Shown here: one piece after another, positions 22,844-55,623 of the stretch | How positions within the stretch are numbered: position 1 is the stretch's first letter | Layout of the letters: every line of letters begins with the position of its first letter | Origin: Hymenobacter tibetensis | GTDB taxonomy: Bacteria > Bacteroidota > Bacteroidia > Cytophagales > Hymenobacteraceae | Direction: 5' to 3' | Assembly (NCBI RefSeq): GCF_022827545.1 | Contig: NZ_CP094669.1 | Span: 1,392,001 to 1,456,000 of the forward strand | DNA: 64,000 bases | The notes under the pieces: generated by a model | Databases searched by the model: none | Told to the model about the DNA's origin: nothing | Seen by the model: the letters and a program-made list of their open reading frames with translations, nothing else | Position numbers and translations under genes: made by a program

Positions 22844-23218
22844 GAGCGTACGCGAAGAGTGGAGTGCGAAAGTAGAACTTCGGCGTCATATACGGCTACA
22901 CGGCCCGGCTAGGGGAGGAGCGGGTTTAGGGTGGCGGTGGTCCATCTAAGCTATCCGCTTTAGGCAGCGCAAAGGGTGCAACGGCCATTGTACGGCGGAG
23001 CTATATTCCGTTGGCGGCATGCCGAGCAAGTAGGAAACCGCTATATTGTGAAACCCTACTTTTTTAGGGCTCAATGAAAACCTGTGCAGCTTGGCGCCGT
23101 ATTAGGCTCAGAATGGCAGAAACTTGATACGCTGGTGACAGCCTATTTAGCGCGGCGGCCACCACTCGGCCACCGAGAGTCATTGATCTGAAATTCATCA
23201 CCTTTCTCTCTCCACACT
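22844..23218. other. Intergenic region without recognisable gene
   Basis: Between the divergent Kazal lipoprotein and YtxH-CsbD genes there are 375 bases without a credible ORF. It must hold both promoters; I see no clear TTG-N20-TAnnTTTG match and no strong hairpin. Confidence 0.5.
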
Positions 23219-23653
23219 ATGTCGTATTACGAAGAAGACAACTCGGGTAAGATTCTCCTCGCTGCTTTGGCTGGTGCCGGTGCCGGTATCATTGCTGGTT
23301 TGTTGATGGCTCCCGATAAAGGCAAAGCCACCCGCGAGAAAATCGGCAGCGCTGCTACCAAGTACAGCGGCCAGTTTGGCGAGCAGTTCTCTAAATACAC
23401 TGAAGACCTGGACGCTAAATTCAAAGGCTACGTTGAGAAACTAGAAGACCTAGGCATCGGTGGTGCTGGCAGCAGCTTGAAGCTGAAAGGCACCTGGGAC
23501 GACGCCAAAGGCAAGCTGAAGCAGCAGTACGCGCAGCTGACCGACGAAGACCTAGAGTATGCCGAAGGCAAAAGCGACGAGCTAGTAGGCCGTTTGCAGC
23601 AGAAACTCGGCAAAGCTAAAAGCGAAGTCGTGAAAATGCTGAATGATTTGTAG
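23219..23653 (+). CDS. YtxH-CsbD fusion stress protein
   Basis: A 144-residue protein made of two stress-related modules. Residues 10-75 are YtxH-like: a glycine-rich hydrophobic helix (ILLAALAGAGAGIIAGLLMAP) followed by an amphipathic helix. Residues 88-137 match the CsbD pattern (LKLKGTWDDAKGKLKQQY, LTDEDLEYAEGKSDELVGRLQQKLG). In most bacteria these are separate small proteins induced by general stress. The N-terminal helix may anchor it to a membrane. Its own terminator follows and a second YtxH gene starts about 190 bases later. Confidence 0.85.
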   Translation: MSYYEEDNSGKILLAALAGAGAGIIAGLLMAPDKGKATREKIGSAATKYSGQFGEQFSKYTEDLDAKFKGYVEKLEDLGIGGAGSSLKLKGTWDDAKGKLKQQYAQLTDEDLEYAEGKSDELVGRLQQKLGKAKSEVVKMLNDL

Positions 23654-23710: not shown

Positions 23711-23846
23711 GTTAACCTAAACCTAATCAGGACCGTTAGCACACTCAAGAAAGTTGCTTGCTGGAAGCTGCCCAGCGAAACGGCCAGCCACCTTCTTGTT
23801 TCTCGGCGTTCTTCTCTTTTCTCACTTTATAACTGCTGCGTTTGTT

Positions 23847-24224
23847 ATGCAAGACACCAAAGGCAAAGTGATTTTTTCTCTGCTTGCTGCAGCCACTGCG
23901 GGCATTGTAACGGGCTTGCTATTGGCTCCCGAAACCGGCGAAGAAACTCGGGCAGGCCTCAAAAAGTCGGCTGGTAAGTTCAGCGACGACCTCAATAAAC
24001 TGTTCAAAGACGGTTTGTCGCGCCTAAGCTCCCTAAAAGAGCAAGCTCCTGCTTCCGCAGAGCAGCAGTCTGACCGCTCAGCGGCCGATAGCCTGCTCGG
24101 TTCCATCAATACGCCCGGTGGTTTCACAGAGCCAGCCCTTGGTAGCGCCGACGACTTCGATTCTGACTACGATGGTAGTGGCGGTGATGCCCGTCATTCG
24201 GCTGGCTACGGCAAAGGGCTTTAA
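23847..24224 (+). CDS. YtxH-domain protein
   Basis: A 125-residue protein from the ATG at 23847 (MQDTKGKVIFSLL). The N-terminal hydrophobic, glycine-containing helix VIFSLLAAATAGIVTGLLLAP and the following ETGEETRAGLKKSAGKFSDDLN are the YtxH pattern shared with the preceding gene. The remainder is acidic and rich in Ser, Asp and Gly, probably disordered. There is no terminator directly after the stop: the first downstream hairpin with a T tail is the 3' end of structured RNA copy 1, so that RNA may be part of this gene's 3' untranslated region. Confidence 0.8.
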   Translation: MQDTKGKVIFSLLAAATAGIVTGLLLAPETGEETRAGLKKSAGKFSDDLNKLFKDGLSRLSSLKEQAPASAEQQSDRSAADSLLGSINTPGGFTEPALGSADDFDSDYDGSGGDARHSAGYGKGL

Positions 24225-24240
24225 AAAAAGTACTCTATTT

Positions 24241-24484
24241 CGTAACCTGATTTCAATCGCGCCGTTAAAGAATATACAACCGACTTGAAAGAAGATCGGA
24301 GATTTCATTGTCGTAAAATTGCCGGCTGCTGAGCTTCTGGCGGGATTGGTTAAATATCCCACCAGTAAAATCTAGCGTTGCCCATCGCAAGCTTCTGCAA
24401 TAGAACCCGGTTGGAAGGGTAAGTTTGTTGTATCAAAAAGGAAAGCCTCCCGCTATTCAATGCGCGGGAGGCTTTCTGATTTTT
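24241..24484 (+). ncRNA. Structured RNA, tandem copy 1 (unrecognised family)
   Basis: This copy of about 240 bases shares sequence blocks in the same order with copy 2 at 24535-24772. Hairpins: CCGACTT/AAGaTCGG around loop GAAAG (24280-24299); CTGGCGGGAT/ATCCCACCAG around loop TGGTTAAAT (24337-24365); TTGC/GCAA around loop CCATC (24378-24390); ACCC/GGGT (24405-24420); and a 13-base terminator stem (24441-24453 with 24464-24476) followed by TGATTTTT. Shared single-stranded blocks are CGTAACCT, GCCGTTAAAGA, GTAAAATTGCCGGC, CAGTAAAATC, GCAAGCTTCT and GGTAAGTT. No credible ORF spans it. I do not recognise a known family. Confidence 0.78.
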
Positions 24485-24534
24485 AGGCTTGTATGGTTAA
24501 CGCGAATCTATTTTTTAAATAAAATGCGTTTGCT

Positions 24535-24772
24535 CGTAACCTCTCGCAACACGCCGCCGTTAAAGAGAATGTAACTAGCTTGAAAGAAGCTGAGTAGCAC
24601 ACTTGAAGTAAAATTGCCGGCAGTAGAGCTTCTGTTTGGTCTTGGTTAACTAGATCAAACAGTAAAATCGTACTTGTCCATCGCAAGCTTCTTTAAGTAA
24701 GTCTTTCAGCTGAAAGGTAAGTTAGAAACAAAAGAAAGCCTCCCGCACAGTGATATGCGGGAGGCTTTCTGC
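24535..24772 (+). ncRNA. Structured RNA, tandem copy 2 (unrecognised family)
   Basis: Same architecture as copy 1 with different stem sequences: ACTAGCTT/AAGCTgAGT around loop GAAAG (24574-24595); CTGTTTGGTCT/AGATCAAACAG around loop TGGTTAACT (24632-24662); CTTGT/GCAAG around loop CCATC (24673-24687); CTTTC/GAAAG (24703-24716); and a 15-base terminator stem (24733-24747 with 24756-24770). Wobble pairs in the second and third hairpins work only in plus-strand RNA, which sets the orientation. The 50 bases after the copy 1 terminator could hold a separate promoter. The T tail is weaker than in copy 1. Confidence 0.78.
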
Positions 24773-24839
24773 TTTATATAGGTAAACCGAGCCGGCAGTA
24801 GTCTGAATAGTTCTTTTAAGTTATTGTGCCCCGGCAGCC

Positions 24840-24877
24840 AATAAAAAGAGCTTGCCACAAGGCAAGCTCTTTTTATT
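24840..24877. terminator. Terminator downstream of lysS
   Basis: A perfect 17-base stem (AATAAAAAGAGCTTGCC with its reverse complement) around an ACAA loop. It has A and T runs on both sides and can act on both strands; it lies 50 bases past the lysS stop. Confidence 0.92.
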
Positions 24878-24927
24878 GTGTCCATTATCATGCAGCGCTC
24901 AGGCTTTTCTGAGCAGCAAGACAATTA

Positions 24928-26481
24928 TTACTCAGGCTTTGGTGCGTTTTCCGACTTGGTGTTCTCCGGCTTCATCTGTGGGAAGAACAACACATCTTGG
25001 ATAGAATTGGAGTTGGTCATGATCATGCTGAGGCGGTCTATACCGATACCCAAGCCCGCTGTAGGCGGCATGCCATACTCTAGGGCACGCAGGAAGTCCT
25101 CGTCAAGCACCATGGCTTCGGTGTCGCCGCGCTTACCTAGCTCCAATTGCTCCTCGAAGCGGGCCCGCTGGTCGATGGGGTCATTCAACTCCGAGAAGGC
25201 GTTGCAGATTTCCTTGCCGTTGCAGATAGCCTCGAACCGCTCCACTAGCCCCGGCTTGCTCCGGTGCTTCTTGGCCAGCGGCGACATTTCCACCGGGTAG
25301 TCGGTGATGAAGGTAGGCTGGATCAGTTTCGGCTCTACATGCTCGCCAAAAATTTCATCGATGATCTTAGCTTTGCCCATGCTTGGGTCGAGGGCCACTT
25401 TCAACTCTTTGGCCGCAGTACGTAGCTCATCTTCCGACTTGCCGTCGATGTTGAAGCCCGTGAAGTGCTCGATGGATTCGGCCATGGTGTAGCGTTTCCA
25501 AGGCCGCTGGAAGTTGATGAGGTTGTCGCCGACCTGCACCTCAGTCTGGCCGTGCAGGGTCAGGGCTACGCGCTCCACCATTTCTTCTACCAAGTCCATC
25601 ATCCAGTAGTAGTCTTTATAGGCTACATACAGTTCCATCTGCGTGAACTCCGGGTTGTGGAAGCGCGACATGCCTTCGTTGCGGAAGTCTTTGCTGAATT
25701 CATATACCCCATCAAAGCCACCCACAATCAGGCGCTTTAGGTACAGCTCGTTGGCAATGCGCAGATACAGCGTCATGTCCAGCGTGTTGTGGTGGGTTTT
25801 GAAGGGGCGAGCGGCCGCACCGCCATACAAGGGCTGTAGGATAGGGGTTTCCACCTCCAAATAACCTTTGTCGTTCAAGTAGTTGCGCATGGCCTGCACC
25901 AACTGCGTACGCTTCACAAAAGCGTCGCGCACCTGCGGGTTCACCACCAAGTCCACGTAGCGCTGGCGGTAGCGCTGTTCGGGGTCGGTGAAGGCGTCGT
26001 ACGTTTTCTTTTCACCAGTGGCTTCGTCAACTGCTTCCCGAACAACGGGCAGCGGACGCAGACTTTTGCTCAGGAATTTGAACTCCGTTACGTGGATGGA
26101 TATTTCACCTACCATCGTAGTAAACACGCGGCCCTTCACGCCCACAAAGTCGCCAAGGTCGACTAGCTTCTTGAAGACGTTGTTGTACAGAGACTTGTCT
26201 TCGCCAGGGCAGATTTCGTCGCGGTTTACGTACAGCTGGATACGGCCCGAGGCATCCATCAGCTCGGCAAACGAGGCTTTACCCATCACCCGTACCGACA
26301 TAACCCGGCCGGCTAAGCTTACTTCTTGGAAGTTGTTTAGCTCGGGGTGGTAGTTGTCAAGAATTTCCTGAGCGTAGAAACTGACGTCGAACAACTCGGA
26401 AGGATACGGCTCGATACCAAGCTTCTGGAGTTCCTCTAGCTTGTTGCGACGAATTATTTCCTGTTCGCTAAGATGATGCAT
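24928..26481 (-). CDS. lysS: Lysyl-tRNA synthetase, class II
   Basis: Charges tRNA-Lys. From the ATG at 26481 ([22 protein letters not shown]) it has 517 residues, normal for LysRS-II; the open frame upstream is not coding. It has the N-terminal OB-fold anticodon domain ([23 protein letters not shown]) and the class II catalytic domain with [20 protein letters not shown] (motif 2) and [11 protein letters not shown] (motif 3). The C terminus adds a short lineage-specific tail. The gene appears to be alone in its transcript. Confidence 0.97.
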
Positions 26482-26761: not shown

Positions 26762-27805
26762 TTAAGCGGCAATACCCATTTGCGGAGCGGGAGTTTCGCC
26801 CGTGATGGTAGGCTGCACCCGAGTGCGGAGGCGTTCCTCTACAAAGCTGTGGTGCAAGTGCTTCGGCAACTCGTCGATTAGCTGCTGGTAGCGCTCCAGG
26901 CCAATAGCCTTGGCTACATAGGTTTCGTGAATGCCATTGAGGTAGCTCACGATGTTGAGCAGCGACTGGTGGAAGAGTTTGAAGTCAATCTCGGCCTCTA
27001 TGTAGCGCTCAATCTCACGGCTGGTCTGCGTAATGCGCAGGCGGCCCAGCAGGTCGAAGATGGTAGTGTAGCCTAAGCGCCACGTAATCTGCTGCCAGTG
27101 TGAAGCAGTCCATTTGTCGAGCACCTTGCCCGTCTTCTGGCTACGCAGCGCCGTGTTGGGGTTAGCTTGGATTTGCTGGCGAGTCCATTGAGCTTTCATC
27201 TTGCGCGTGGTGCGCAAGAACTGGCCAATCTGAGCCTGTGCGTCAATCTCCTTGCTGGCAATGTTAAGCCCGGCTTTGTAGCCCGCCAACGGCAAGCGGT
27301 GAATGCTAAAGTCGCCGTAAGAGCCAGCCGCATAGAACGACACTGGCCGCGGGTACGCGTTGCGAACTACTAACCGGCCAACCTCACGGCGCACCAAAGA
27401 AGGATTGTTGCCACGTACGCCTGCTGTGTATAGGAAAGCCTGCAAGCCAGCCATAATGGTATGATAAGCCTGCGGGAACGTCCAGTGCAAGGCGTTACGC
27501 AAGTAGTCCTCGTCGCCTAGCTCGGCCGTGGAACGCAATGCGTATTCCGTGCTCCAGCAAGCGTGCAACAGCTTAGTTATAGCTGTCAGGTCGGTATCGG
27601 TTAGCTCTGCTTGATGCGCGCGGAAAAAGGGCAGGTGTTGCAAGCCACCGGTGGCGTCATCAGCCTCCTGGATATGGTAGTTGATAGCGAAGAAATAGTT
27701 GAGGAAAACCTGCGCCGGGATAGACTTGCGCCAGGTCTCGTCAGCTAGCTTCTGCTGCTCGTCCGTCACGAGCGGAATGATAGGTGTTTCCATGTTCGTT
27801 GTCAT
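26762..27805 (-). CDS. Protein of unknown function
   Basis: A 347-residue soluble protein with no signal peptide or membrane segment. It is rich in aromatic residues and predicted helices (VFLNYFFAINYHIQEADDA, HWTFPQAYHTIMAGLQAFLY, HQSLLNIVSYLNGIHETYVAKAIGLERYQQLI). The layout slightly resembles HEPN-type all-helical proteins, but no catalytic RxxxxH-type motif can be assigned with confidence. It starts at the ATG at 27805, with an alternative at 27793. An AT-rich upstream region and its own terminator suggest a monocistronic gene. Confidence 0.65.
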   Translation of the reverse strand: MTTNMETPIIPLVTDEQQKLADETWRKSIPAQVFLNYFFAINYHIQEADDATGGLQHLPFFRAHQAELTDTDLTAITKLLHACWSTEYALRSTAELGDEDYLRNALHWTFPQAYHTIMAGLQAFLYTAGVRGNNPSLVRREVGRLVVRNAYPRPVSFYAAGSYGDFSIHRLPLAGYKAGLNIASKEIDAQAQIGQFLRTTRKMKAQWTRQQIQANPNTALRSQKTGKVLDKWTASHWQQITWRLGYTTIFDLLGRLRITQTSREIERYIEAEIDFKLFHQSLLNIVSYLNGIHETYVAKAIGLERYQQLIDELPKHLHHSFVEERLRTRVQPTITGETPAPQMGIAA

Positions 27806-30549: not shown

Positions 30550-31410
30550 CTAGTAGCGACGCACCTTGTCGCCGTTACTGCGACGGAATTCTTCTTCGAA
30601 ATAACGAGCATCTTCGTCGTTACGGGGATTTACGCCCATTACGATGCCGCCATTTTTGATATCGGATTCGTACTCTTTAGCATGCTCTTCTGGGATGCCC
30701 GAGCCTACCAAGGCTCCTACTAGACCACCCGTCAGACCACCGGCGCCAGCACCAGCCAAGGCTGCTGCGATAGGACCAGCAATTACCAAGCCCAGGCCTG
30801 GTAGTGCTACCGACGTGCCAATAGCAGCAATAGCACCAATGATAGCACCTGCAGTACCACCGATGGCCGAACCTACGCCAGCGCCTTCCATGGCTTTGTC
30901 GCCAAGCTCGGTGTCAGGAGTGTTGCTGCCGAAGTGCGTATTGCGGGTTTCGTCCGACATCAACACGTTCACGTCGTCTTTGGAATAACCACGCGAAGAA
31001 AGTGACTGATAGGCACGCTCAGCGCTGTCACGGTCACGGAACATGCCCGTCATCATGCCACCGCTGGTTGAAGAACCATAAGATGAATCGTTACCAGTTA
31101 CAGCGCGGCCAGCATCGCTAGCAGCATTTTGTACGGCGTCAATACCAGCTCCTACGGTAGCACCTACTGAACCTGCTACGGCTGCACCTTTCTGGGTGGC
31201 ACTGTAGTCATGGTTCGGGTTGCTGTCAGCACCAGGGATGCTAGAGTCGCCGCTGTTAGAGTTGCCTAGGTTGCCACCCGACGTAGCGTTGCTGCTAGAA
31301 CCAGTAGAGAGCGAGCCGCTGCCAAAGCCAGTGCCAGCGTTGCCGGTACCATAGTTAGAGCCTGAGCCTGTACCAGTATTCATCGGGTTATTCGATTCGT
31401 TGGTGTTCAT
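30550..31410 (-). CDS. General-stress-type protein with glycine-zipper domain
   Basis: A 286-residue protein from the ATG at 31410 (MNTNESNNPMNTG). The first 90 residues are a disordered Gly/Ser/Asn tract. Residues 118-150 (GMFRDRDSAERAYQSLSSRGYSKDDVNVLMS) match the YflT-type stress-protein domain. A long stretch of Gly/Ala zippers (GAGVGSAIGGTAGAIIGAIAAIG and following) could insert in or lie on a membrane. The C terminus again has the stress-protein pattern (GGIVMGVNPRNDEDARYFEEEF), where the domain resumes after the zipper insert. The role is probably osmotic or general stress, inferred from the domain only. Confidence 0.75.
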   Translation of the reverse strand: MNTNESNNPMNTGTGSGSNYGTGNAGTGFGSGSLSTGSSSNATSGGNLGNSNSGDSSIPGADSNPNHDYSATQKGAAVAGSVGATVGAGIDAVQNAASDAGRAVTGNDSSYGSSTSGGMMTGMFRDRDSAERAYQSLSSRGYSKDDVNVLMSDETRNTHFGSNTPDTELGDKAMEGAGVGSAIGGTAGAIIGAIAAIGTSVALPGLGLVIAGPIAAALAGAGAGGLTGGLVGALVGSGIPEEHAKEYESDIKNGGIVMGVNPRNDEDARYFEEEFRRSNGDKVRRY

Positions 31411-31577
31411 GTGGAGAGAATGTATAGGTGGAAATGGAAGAACCCAGTGCAGTAATCGAGAGTGGAACACTGCATCCAGATATATGTCACTAAACGCGAC
31501 CGTTCTGGTCGGGGTTACATATATAATTAGGGCCTTTCATTTTTTCGGGGCTATACTACTGCTCGCACAGTCGAGCT

Positions 31578-54409: not shown

Positions 54410-55026
54410 TTGTTCAGTGGTATGGTGCTGATTGTTTGCAAGTAAGCAATTGCCAGGTGAATAATGCTAAACAAGAATTTAACAAGCAGTAGAAATGTAT
54501 GTGGCTGCAGCCCTTTGTCAAAGCTCTGCTTATTCAACTGTTGCATTGATGCTACTGCGCTCGCCAGCAGGCATAGCAGTTGGGCAAAGTGTACAGCTTA
54601 CTTTAATTCTGCGACTACCTCTGAGTATATAAAGTTTACAAAGGCCACGTAGCTCCTCTTTTTGTTGGCTACTACTTGAGAAGCCTGGGAACAAGTGTTC
54701 AGGAGTAGGTGTAGTGCTTTTACCTACACACCTGTAGCAACTAATCGTTGTGCTAGCTGTTGATTTGGTGTAAGCATTGCCGAGAACCGTAGCTCCACTA
54801 CATTAGCTGTGAAAGTACTGTTTGGTATGGCGGTGTCTAGCCGAAAAGTATTCTTCTACGAGCTTAGCGTTTCACTTTGATTGGCTTGTTTGCGAGTGTA
54901 TTTCGTCTCAATAAGGTGCGCGAATAATTTGTAGTATGCGTGTAGCCTGCAAAGGCAAAGTATTACGAATCTCACGTAAAATTGTATATTGGTTGCAAGC
55001 CTTGTTCCCTCAGCCTTCTTCGTTCT
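54410..55026. other. Gene-poor AT-rich stretch upstream of the ECF sigma gene
   Basis: About 600 bases with only short doubtful ORFs (for example a 62-codon frame at 54464-54652 in the divergent orientation to the repressor). Nothing can be assigned; it may be remnants of a lost divergent gene and the sigma-factor promoter. Confidence 0.4.
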
Positions 55027-55623
55027 GTGAATTCTTCTCAATGGACATACGCCGCTTGGACGGACACCGAGTTGCTCGATGCACTGCGCGCAGACGAGGA
55101 AAAAGCCTTTGCTGAGATCTATAAGCGCTATTGCTACCGTCTGTTCACTGTCGCTTATCGGAAACTTAATAGCCGCCAAGTTGCCGAGGAGCTAGTACAA
55201 GATCTATTTGCGGACCTTTGGGGCCGGCGTGGCATCATCCAGATTCAGCAACTAGAGAGCTATCTGTTTTCGGCGATTCGCTATCGAATCATCAACTATA
55301 TCAAGTCGAAGAAAATCAAGTCGGGGTACGAGCTGTACTGTCGCTTGAGCGCAAGTGATGCCGATACGGATACGGAAAAACTCCTTGCGCATAACGATTT
55401 GAGTGAGGCGTTGCTGGACAGTATGCGCAAGTTGCCCGAAAAGTCTAGGGAGATATTCCAGTTGAGCAGATTAGAGCATTATACAGTGCCCGAAATTTCG
55501 GTGCGGGTCAAACTGTCGGAGAAAAGCGTTGAATACCACCTAACTAAGTCTCTGAAACTACTGCGAAGCTATCTGCGAGACTATCTGATGCTTGTACCGA
55601 TACTTTTTTTGTGGTTGCGATAG
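55027..55623 (+). CDS. ECF RNA polymerase sigma factor of a Sus-type locus
   Basis: A FecI-like sigma factor of about 198 residues from the GTG at 55027; the frame opens at a TTG at 54982 but there is no ATG. Region 2 is at about 15-80 (DEEKAFAEIYKRYCYRLFTVAYRKL, ELVQDLFADLWGRRG) and region 4 at about 130-190 (LRKLPEKSREIFQLSRLEHYTVPEISVRVKLSEKSVEYHLTKSLKLL). The following FecR and STN-type SusC genes make it the sigma factor of a trans-envelope signalling system. Confidence 0.88.
   Translation: MNSSQWTYAAWTDTELLDALRADEEKAFAEIYKRYCYRLFTVAYRKLNSRQVAEELVQDLFADLWGRRGIIQIQQLESYLFSAIRYRIINYIKSKKIKSGYELYCRLSASDADTDTEKLLAHNDLSEALLDSMRKLPEKSREIFQLSRLEHYTVPEISVRVKLSEKSVEYHLTKSLKLLRSYLRDYLMLVPILFLWLR

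Follow-up and report, generated by a model that had tools for sequence, protein, structure and literature searches.

The window, a 64,000-nucleotide stretch of the Hymenobacter tibetensis chromosome to which all positions below refer, contains two related units arranged head to tail between ytxH2, which ends at 24224, and lysS, which lies on the reverse strand and ends at 24928. Alignment of copy 2 with copy 1 by blastn gave 71% identity (E 7.3e-17), confirming the initial annotation, which had described two head-to-tail units between a YtxH gene and lysS. The blocks common to both copies and the two terminator-like hairpins that it had reported were also found. It had further proposed copies of about 240 bases; their relatedness held, but the first ~33 nt of each (GTAACC...CGTTAAAGA) are now read as promoter and not as RNA, because their spacing is fixed and the filler between the elements is unconserved. 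From this promoter-defined start and from the long-range outer stems described below, the RNA cores were placed at 24274-24432 and 24569-24730, each followed by a terminator. The two units are paralogous predicted RNA genes. The features of the locus are as follows.

23077..23103, + strand: like promoter before ytxH1, AAAACC-N15-CGTATT
23219..23653, + strand: ytxH1, YtxH + CsbD domain protein (Pfam PF12732, PF05532)
23712..23739, + strand: like promoter before ytxH2, TTAACC-N16-CGTTAG
23847..24224, + strand: ytxH2, YtxH domain protein (Pfam PF12732)
24223..24229, + strand: A-tract (UP-like element) of promoter A, overlapping the ytxH2 stop codon
24242..24247, + strand: -35-like element GTAACC of RNA copy A (promoter alignment, strict promoter pattern)
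24263..24268, + strand: -10-like element CGTTAA of RNA copy A, spacer 15 (promoter alignment)
24274..24432, + strand: RNA copy A, predicted rod-shaped core with stems P0-P5 (covariance model R1, 155.6 bits; covariation)
24313..24319, + strand: copy A, module A 5' strand GUAAAAU (invariant except Y, 102/102)
24332..24337, + strand: copy A, module B 5' strand AGCUUC (AGCTTCT in 97/102)
24337..24365, + strand: copy A, apical hairpin P5 with UGGUUAAA loop (8/10 pairs changed on both sides)
24365..24371, + strand: copy A, module B 3' strand GUAAAAU (invariant except Y, 102/102)
24390..24395, + strand: copy A, module A 3' strand AGCUUC (AGCTTCT in 58/102)
24441..24484, + strand: terminator-like hairpin and U tract of copy A
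24510..24525, + strand: A/T tract of promoter B
24536..24541, + strand: -35-like element GTAACC of RNA copy B (promoter alignment)
24558..24563, + strand: -10-like element CGTTAA of RNA copy B, spacer 16 (promoter alignment)
24569..24730, + strand: RNA copy B, predicted rod-shaped core (R1, 134.1 bits)
24608..24614, + strand: copy B, module A 5' strand GUAAAAU
24627..24632, + strand: copy B, module B 5' strand AGCUUC
24662..24668, + strand: copy B, module B 3' strand GUAAAAU
24686..24691, + strand: copy B, module A 3' strand AGCUUC
24733..24776, + strand: terminator-like hairpin of copy B
31491..31518, - strand: like promoter before a YflT-like gene, GTAACC-N16-CGTTTA

Several other elements were observed in the window. 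The ytxH1 product is a small protein in which a YtxH domain is fused to a CsbD domain, and the gene also lies beside the RNA in the fetched loci of genus groups g1 and g5. A perfect 18-bp inverted repeat at 24839-24878 is probably the lysS terminator and perhaps also serves the RNA locus. Farther downstream, a gene at 26762-27805 (- strand) encodes a 347-aa protein without a Pfam match at E<=0.001, and an ECF-type sigma factor gene (54982-55623; Pfam Sigma70_r2, r4_2) is followed by two large reading frames.

Phylogenetic distribution and genomic context

A blastn search with copy 2 against 100 genomes of the family returned matches in 41. Forty-six copies from the matched loci were aligned (alignment A2) and used to build the covariance model R1, which has 158 positions and 47 base pairs. 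R1 detected the RNA in 43 of the 100 family genomes: in all 33 of g1, the window's own genus group, in all eight of g5 and in two of eight of g4, with no genome of g2, g3 or g6 carrying it in this sample. Two copies were present in 17 of the 43 positive genomes. With stricter filters, R1 recovered the RNA from 14 of 194 genomes of the order (13 from g1 and one from g4) and from four of 395 genomes of a phylum-wide sample, all of them g1. Sixteen lysS loci taken from g2, g3, g4, g6 and three other families, including two from the g4 genomes that carry the RNA elsewhere, contained no credible R1 match with the filters turned off (best E 0.39). A pattern scan of named genomes yielded at least 118 stretches, and R1 recognized 55 among those listed, all labelled Hymenobacter. 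The RNA family is kept throughout the sampled Hymenobacter (41/41 genomes, two genus groups) and is often duplicated.

The genomic position of the RNA was also conserved. In all 36 fetched g1 and g5 genomes, a count that leaves out five further positive g1 genomes, ytxH and lysS flank it. Such a fixed place would be expected of a cis element, that is, a leader, attenuator or 3' UTR structure belonging to ytxH2 or lysS. Against this, lysS is encoded on the opposite strand, each copy has promoter-like and terminator-like elements of its own, and in two g4 genomes the neighbors are unrelated; we therefore consider a cis-acting role very improbable. In those two genomes the RNA occupies different, non-syntenic places (L013 1480-1719 and L016 1482-1719) between unrelated genes and brings its own promoter and terminator.

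A midpoint-rooted tree of 102 copies, drawn without support values, separated the paralogues. Nineteen of the 20 downstream (B) copies from outside the g5-like group clustered together, apart from most A or single copies (the exception was L127), and the g5-like group had divergent upstream copies of its own. The two g4 copies nested beside the A copies of H. telluris, H. norwichensis and the window. As they sit among Hymenobacter A copies and have unrelated neighbors, their placement suggests horizontal transfer of a self-contained sRNA gene. The same nesting of non-syntenic copies could be taken as the mark of a mobile or selfish RNA element that spreads by transposition without a host function. 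We give this explanation hardly any credence, since the RNA keeps one fixed locus across the fetched g1 and g5 genomes, the paralogues stay apart in the tree, blastn and R1 found no further copies in the H. tibetensis genome besides the pair, and none of six viral contigs bearing the pattern matched R1. In H. elongatus, the second copy (L169 5557-5711) scored only 38 bits with R1 and is perhaps a decaying paralogue.

Conserved structure of the RNA

Both copies folded better than their dinucleotide shuffles (z -3.4 and -6.2). The R1 model describes a rod composed, from the base upward, of the outer stem P0, P1, P2, the module-A loop, P3, P4, the module-B loop and the apical hairpin P5. The median core length over 102 copies is 159 nt, and the internal loops of the predicted structure have median sizes of 7x8, 7x5, 5x4, 1x4 and 4x5 nt, the 7x8 loop adjoining the outer stem. 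In A2 (46 copies, aligned with MAFFT and not structure-fitted), 83.8% of cells pair, compared with 71.0% after shuffling. In A3 (55 copies, fitted to R1), the paired fraction is 86.2%, and 36 of 47 pairs have changed on both sides. In A4 (102 copies, fitted to R1), 86.2% of cells pair versus 70.2% in shuffles, both sides have changed in 37 of 47 base pairs, and the covariation score of 0.482, compared with 0.197 for shuffles, was reached by none of 500 shuffled alignments; slid-partner controls gave at most 0.096.

Because fitted alignments lean towards the model, the 102 copies were realigned by MAFFT alone, blind to structure, and all column pairs were compared with a tree-aware null consisting of 40 alignments in which substitutions were reassigned along a FastTree tree. 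Eight column pairs exceeded every pair of the 40 null alignments, and each of them belongs to the rod: P5 contributes three, P0 and P2 two each, and P4 one. Stems P1 and P3 are not among them; P3 hardly varies, and P1 rests on the counts from the fitted alignment. The three pairs in P5, a hairpin in which eight of ten pairs have changed on both sides in A4, verify the compensatory changes that the initial annotation had seen in its TGGTTAA hairpin. Its two other local structures, the GAAAG hairpin and the pre-terminator hairpin, fared less well. Between 49 and 90 of the 102 sequences pair per position in the former and between 32 and 67 in the latter, and the same bases take part in the long-range stems P0 and P1, with 84.6% and 87.8% of cells paired and double changes in 17 of 18 pairs (rod-fitted alignment). 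These local hairpins, being weaker than the long-range stems that share their bases, were rejected.

Searches for known families agreed with the proposal that the RNA belongs to an unrecognized one. At gathering scores, Rfam 15 matched only two tRNAs in the whole window; at loose thresholds, the RNA region gave only sub-threshold matches, several of them at the terminators; and 20 homologous loci searched at E<=0.5 gave no match over its gathering score. No paper on the RNA was among the matches listed from the open-licence PMC literature. The homologues with compensatory changes for which we had looked likewise uphold the earlier view of a selected RNA. The family and its predicted structure are well supported by the comparison of copies and, judged by its covariation, this is a genuine, strongly selected RNA family that Rfam does not list.

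Promoters, terminators and stress genes

In 53 of 55 copies, the promoter of the RNA reads as an A/T tract followed by GTAACC and, after 15 nt (42 copies) or 16 nt (11 copies), CGTTAA; the other two, L035 and L059, fell outside the fit of the promoter scan. CGTTAA starts 11-13 nt before the RNA core (53/55 copies), and an A/T-rich stretch lies at -18 to -11 from GTAACC in the 53 aligned promoters. By eye, GTAACC could pair with the GGTT apical loop, but this idea was dropped because GTAACC lies upstream of the RNA and at promoter spacing. Behind the core, all 101 copies with enough sequence have a strong hairpin, with a median of -29.5 kcal/mol within 60 nt, compared with -12.9 kcal/mol farther downstream. 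By this sequence evidence, each RNA has the promoter (53/55) and the terminator (101/101) of an independent sRNA gene, and both units of the window are probably transcribed. In two loci (L177 5515-5752 and L059 1501-1653), the core is kept and the hairpin that follows is of unrelated sequence, so that the terminator looks exchangeable.

In Bacillus, YtxH, CsbD and YflT belong to the general stress proteins. A promoter like that of the RNA precedes ytxH1 in 30 of 30 orthologous upstream stretches, with NNAACC-N15-CGTAT in nearly all (the count drops L024 and L082, both upstream of ytxH2, from 32 stretches), and ytxH2 in 33 of 35 distinct orthologous upstream stretches; in this loose scan, reversed controls also matched in 8/30 and 14/35 cases, respectively. 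In the window, TAACC-N15..17-CGTTA occurs three times, before ytxH2 and both RNAs, against 0.23 expected, and none of 100 shuffles reached three. Seven kilobases from the RNA pair, GTAACC-N16-CGTTTA lies upstream of the YflT-like gene, and GTAACC-N15/16-CGTT(A/T)A precedes this gene in five of six named Hymenobacter loci with usable upstream sequence (L158, L207, L148, L130 and L213, whose upstream sequence was short or mis-cut, are left out, as are L189 and L226). The YflT-like gene probably belongs to the same regulon as the RNA. Its product, encoded at 30550-31518 (- strand), is glycine-rich, and its YflT match lies below the Pfam cut-off. The stress link suggested by the initial annotation thus gained ground from like promoters before the YtxH-CsbD, YtxH and YflT-like genes, and the RNA seems to be induced along with stress genes.

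The pattern was not enriched genome-wide. TAACCN15-16CGTTA had eight matches in the H. tibetensis genome versus 20 for the reversed control, and GTAACCN15-16CGTTA had 19 in seven genomes, eight of them RNA copies, versus 21 for the control, which is no excess. One strict match falls inside a coding frame. Five other, looser matches were present in the H. tibetensis genome, some of which precede reading frames. At L275, L280 and L282 of this genome, TAACC-N15/16-CGTTA lies before or near frames (201-aa, 77-aa and, by eye, alcohol-dehydrogenase-like) that are possible regulon members.

An AAC in the -35 box, a CGT-type -10 box and a spacer of 15-16 nt together argue strongly for a promoter of the ECF-sigma class. 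The EcfG promoter of alphaproteobacteria is given as GGAAC-N16-CGTT, with an almost invariant AAC triplet, in PMC7083833; it resembles the Hymenobacter promoter in the AAC of its -35 element, in its CGTT -10 element, in its spacer (15-16) and in serving general-stress genes. In Hymenobacter, by contrast, the -35 element is GTAACC, and the cognate sigma factor there need not be EcfG. For B. thetaiotaomicron, PMC7366714 describes a second, non-canonical type of promoter, made up of -10 and -30 elements and associated with oxidative stress genes.

The twin internal loops and candidate functions

Twenty-five alignment columns are invariant in the 102 copies; 24 of these lie in or beside two modules, and the remaining one is a U of the apical loop. 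The module is an internal loop in which GYAAAAU faces AGCUUC, and it is present twice in opposite orientation. Loop A carries GYAAAAU on its 5' strand and AGCUUC on its 3' strand (AGCTTCT in 58/102, the other variants ending in UUCU or UUCC), and loop B carries AGCUUC on its 5' strand (AGCTTCT in 97/102) and GYAAAAU on its 3' strand. As the 3' strand of module A is less conserved, the two sites may not be equal. Both loops measure 5x4 nt in 102 of 102 copies, in all of which the 5' strand between them is 14-15 nt long, so that by our estimate roughly one helical turn would separate the modules. Of the 102 copies, 84 have the same base at the bulged Y of both modules (Fisher p 1e-8), but the pair falls short of the tree-based null. 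In ViennaRNA ensembles, the bases that stay mostly unpaired are the Y and the final two A of GYAAAAU together with the GC of AGCUUC, while the first two A of GYAAAAU and the UU of AGCUUC pair about 60% of the time.

The module sequence was also searched for outside the RNA. AGCTTC-N8..38-GYAAAAT had 125 matches in eight genomes, 16 of them RNA copies, versus 25 for the reversed control, an excess. The 30 loci fetched included 22 non-RNA matches, none of which had four or more nested pairs beside the halves; 18 of the 22 lie in open frames of at least 150 codons. The other 87 non-RNA matches are known from their listing alone.

Outside the modules, UGGUYAAAC in the apical loop, the CCAUC bulge and the GAAAGAAG loop are unpaired and conserved and could be antisense seeds. 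The RNA might then be a base-pairing sRNA in which one of these segments is the seed and the modules shape the RNA or bind a chaperone. GibS of Bacteroides thetaiotaomicron offers a precedent: according to PMC7366714, it is an intergenic, trans-encoded Bacteroidota sRNA with a non-canonical promoter (PM2), a terminator and a single-stranded seed at its 5' end. Compared by description only, it differs from the closed rod of the Hymenobacter RNA in being largely unfolded (same source). Moreover, invariance peaks in the modules and not in a seed, several paralogues have lost CCAUC, and the leaders of ytxH1 and ytxH2, the two mRNAs examined, showed no complementarity to the RNA (49 and 52 copy-leader pairs, mean z between -0.34 and 0.6). 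We regard a base-pairing function as unlikely, while still a serious contender.

6S RNA has a large single-stranded central bubble flanked by long stems. An RNA of the 6S or Ms1 type would mimic melted promoter DNA with its rod and damp RNA polymerase in stress or stationary phase. The Hymenobacter RNA shares with 6S and 6S-Flavo the rod, a similar size (core median 159 nt) and a plausible stress or stationary-phase role, in keeping with its stress-type promoter, and tandem 6S genes occur in the Bacillus cereus group (PMC7726162). The predicted rod, however, lacks a large central bubble of the 6S kind, its largest loop by medians (7 x 8 nt) adjoining the outer stem, and its conserved bases lie in two small repeated loops. 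Ms1 of Actinobacteria is a 6S-like RNA traced through its conserved gene neighborhood; unlike the Hymenobacter RNA, it is ~300 nt long, has a central bubble and extra end hairpins, and belongs to another phylum (PMC9130861). The partner of Ms1 is known and is the RNA polymerase core.

Searches with the Rfam models bear on both sides of this question. Neither the 6S nor the 6S-Flavo model matches the RNA over its cut-off. The 6S model (RF00013) found nothing over the cut-off in 19 genomes, the H. tibetensis genome (without a match at E<=10) and 18 relatives; weak matches in five of the 19 (E 0.25-3.6) were below the cut-off and are other loci than the RNA, R1 detecting no copy within them. In 14 control genomes, the same model matched in eight and exceeded the cut-off in four. 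The 6S-Flavo model (RF01685) matched in none of the 19 genomes at E<=1, a search without a positive control, as the 14 control genomes also gave nothing over the cut-off. With no match over the cut-off of the Rfam 6S models in the H. tibetensis genome and 12 other genomes of the Hymenobacter group, 6S RNA may be missing from this group, though Bacteroides (PMC7366714) and F. psychrophilum (PMC9723704) have one. Such a gap would suit a substitute for 6S; six genomes of other families of the order are without both 6S-Flavo and the RNA, which argues against simple replacement. Overall, we consider a 6S-type function unlikely, though with base pairing it is one of the two main rivals.

CsrB/RsmZ-type RNAs carry repeated GGA hairpin loops. 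They resemble the Hymenobacter RNA in having repeated protein-binding sites and acting as decoys, both of which are proposals in the latter case, and differ from it in the repeat, which in the Hymenobacter RNA is a GGA-free internal loop occurring once in each orientation; in the per-column consensus, no GGA occurs in the module loops or the apical loop.

The reading we put forward is that of an RNA, raised under stress, that acts in trans as a decoy or scaffold by holding a protein, which would probably be a dimer, at its twin sites; we judge it as apt to be right as wrong. Each RNA gene would have a terminator and an ECF-sigma-type promoter of its own, the latter of the kind that also precedes the stress-protein genes next to it and nearby, and stress would raise the RNA level. 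Since the same loop recurs in opposite orientation about one helical turn apart, the twin modules would offer a pseudo-two-fold site, and the RNA could hold a protein there, in the simplest case a homodimer that places one subunit on each module. The bound protein would be held in trans, as decoy or scaffold. Protein binding, the dimer and the decoy role are the most tentative steps of this proposal. Action in trans, which the initial annotation had already envisaged, is favored by the g4 copies, which carry their promoter at unrelated sites, and by the ytxH leaders without complementarity. A more specific version likens the RNA to a palindromic operator, its two inverted modules capturing a homodimer that is possibly a regulator of the same sigma regulon; we hold this to be a tentative idea, doubtful on balance and nonetheless worth stating.

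To our knowledge, stress regulons and sRNAs have been little studied in Bacteroidota. Here, a strongly covarying RNA that is absent from Rfam 15 is present in 41 of 41 sampled genomes of the genus. The kind of promoter that it shares with stress genes provides a sequence handle for tracing the sigma factor and the remaining regulon members, and its twin inverted modules predict one protein with two sites. If the comparison with a palindromic operator is true, the RNA would represent a new architecture among protein-sequestering bacterial RNAs.
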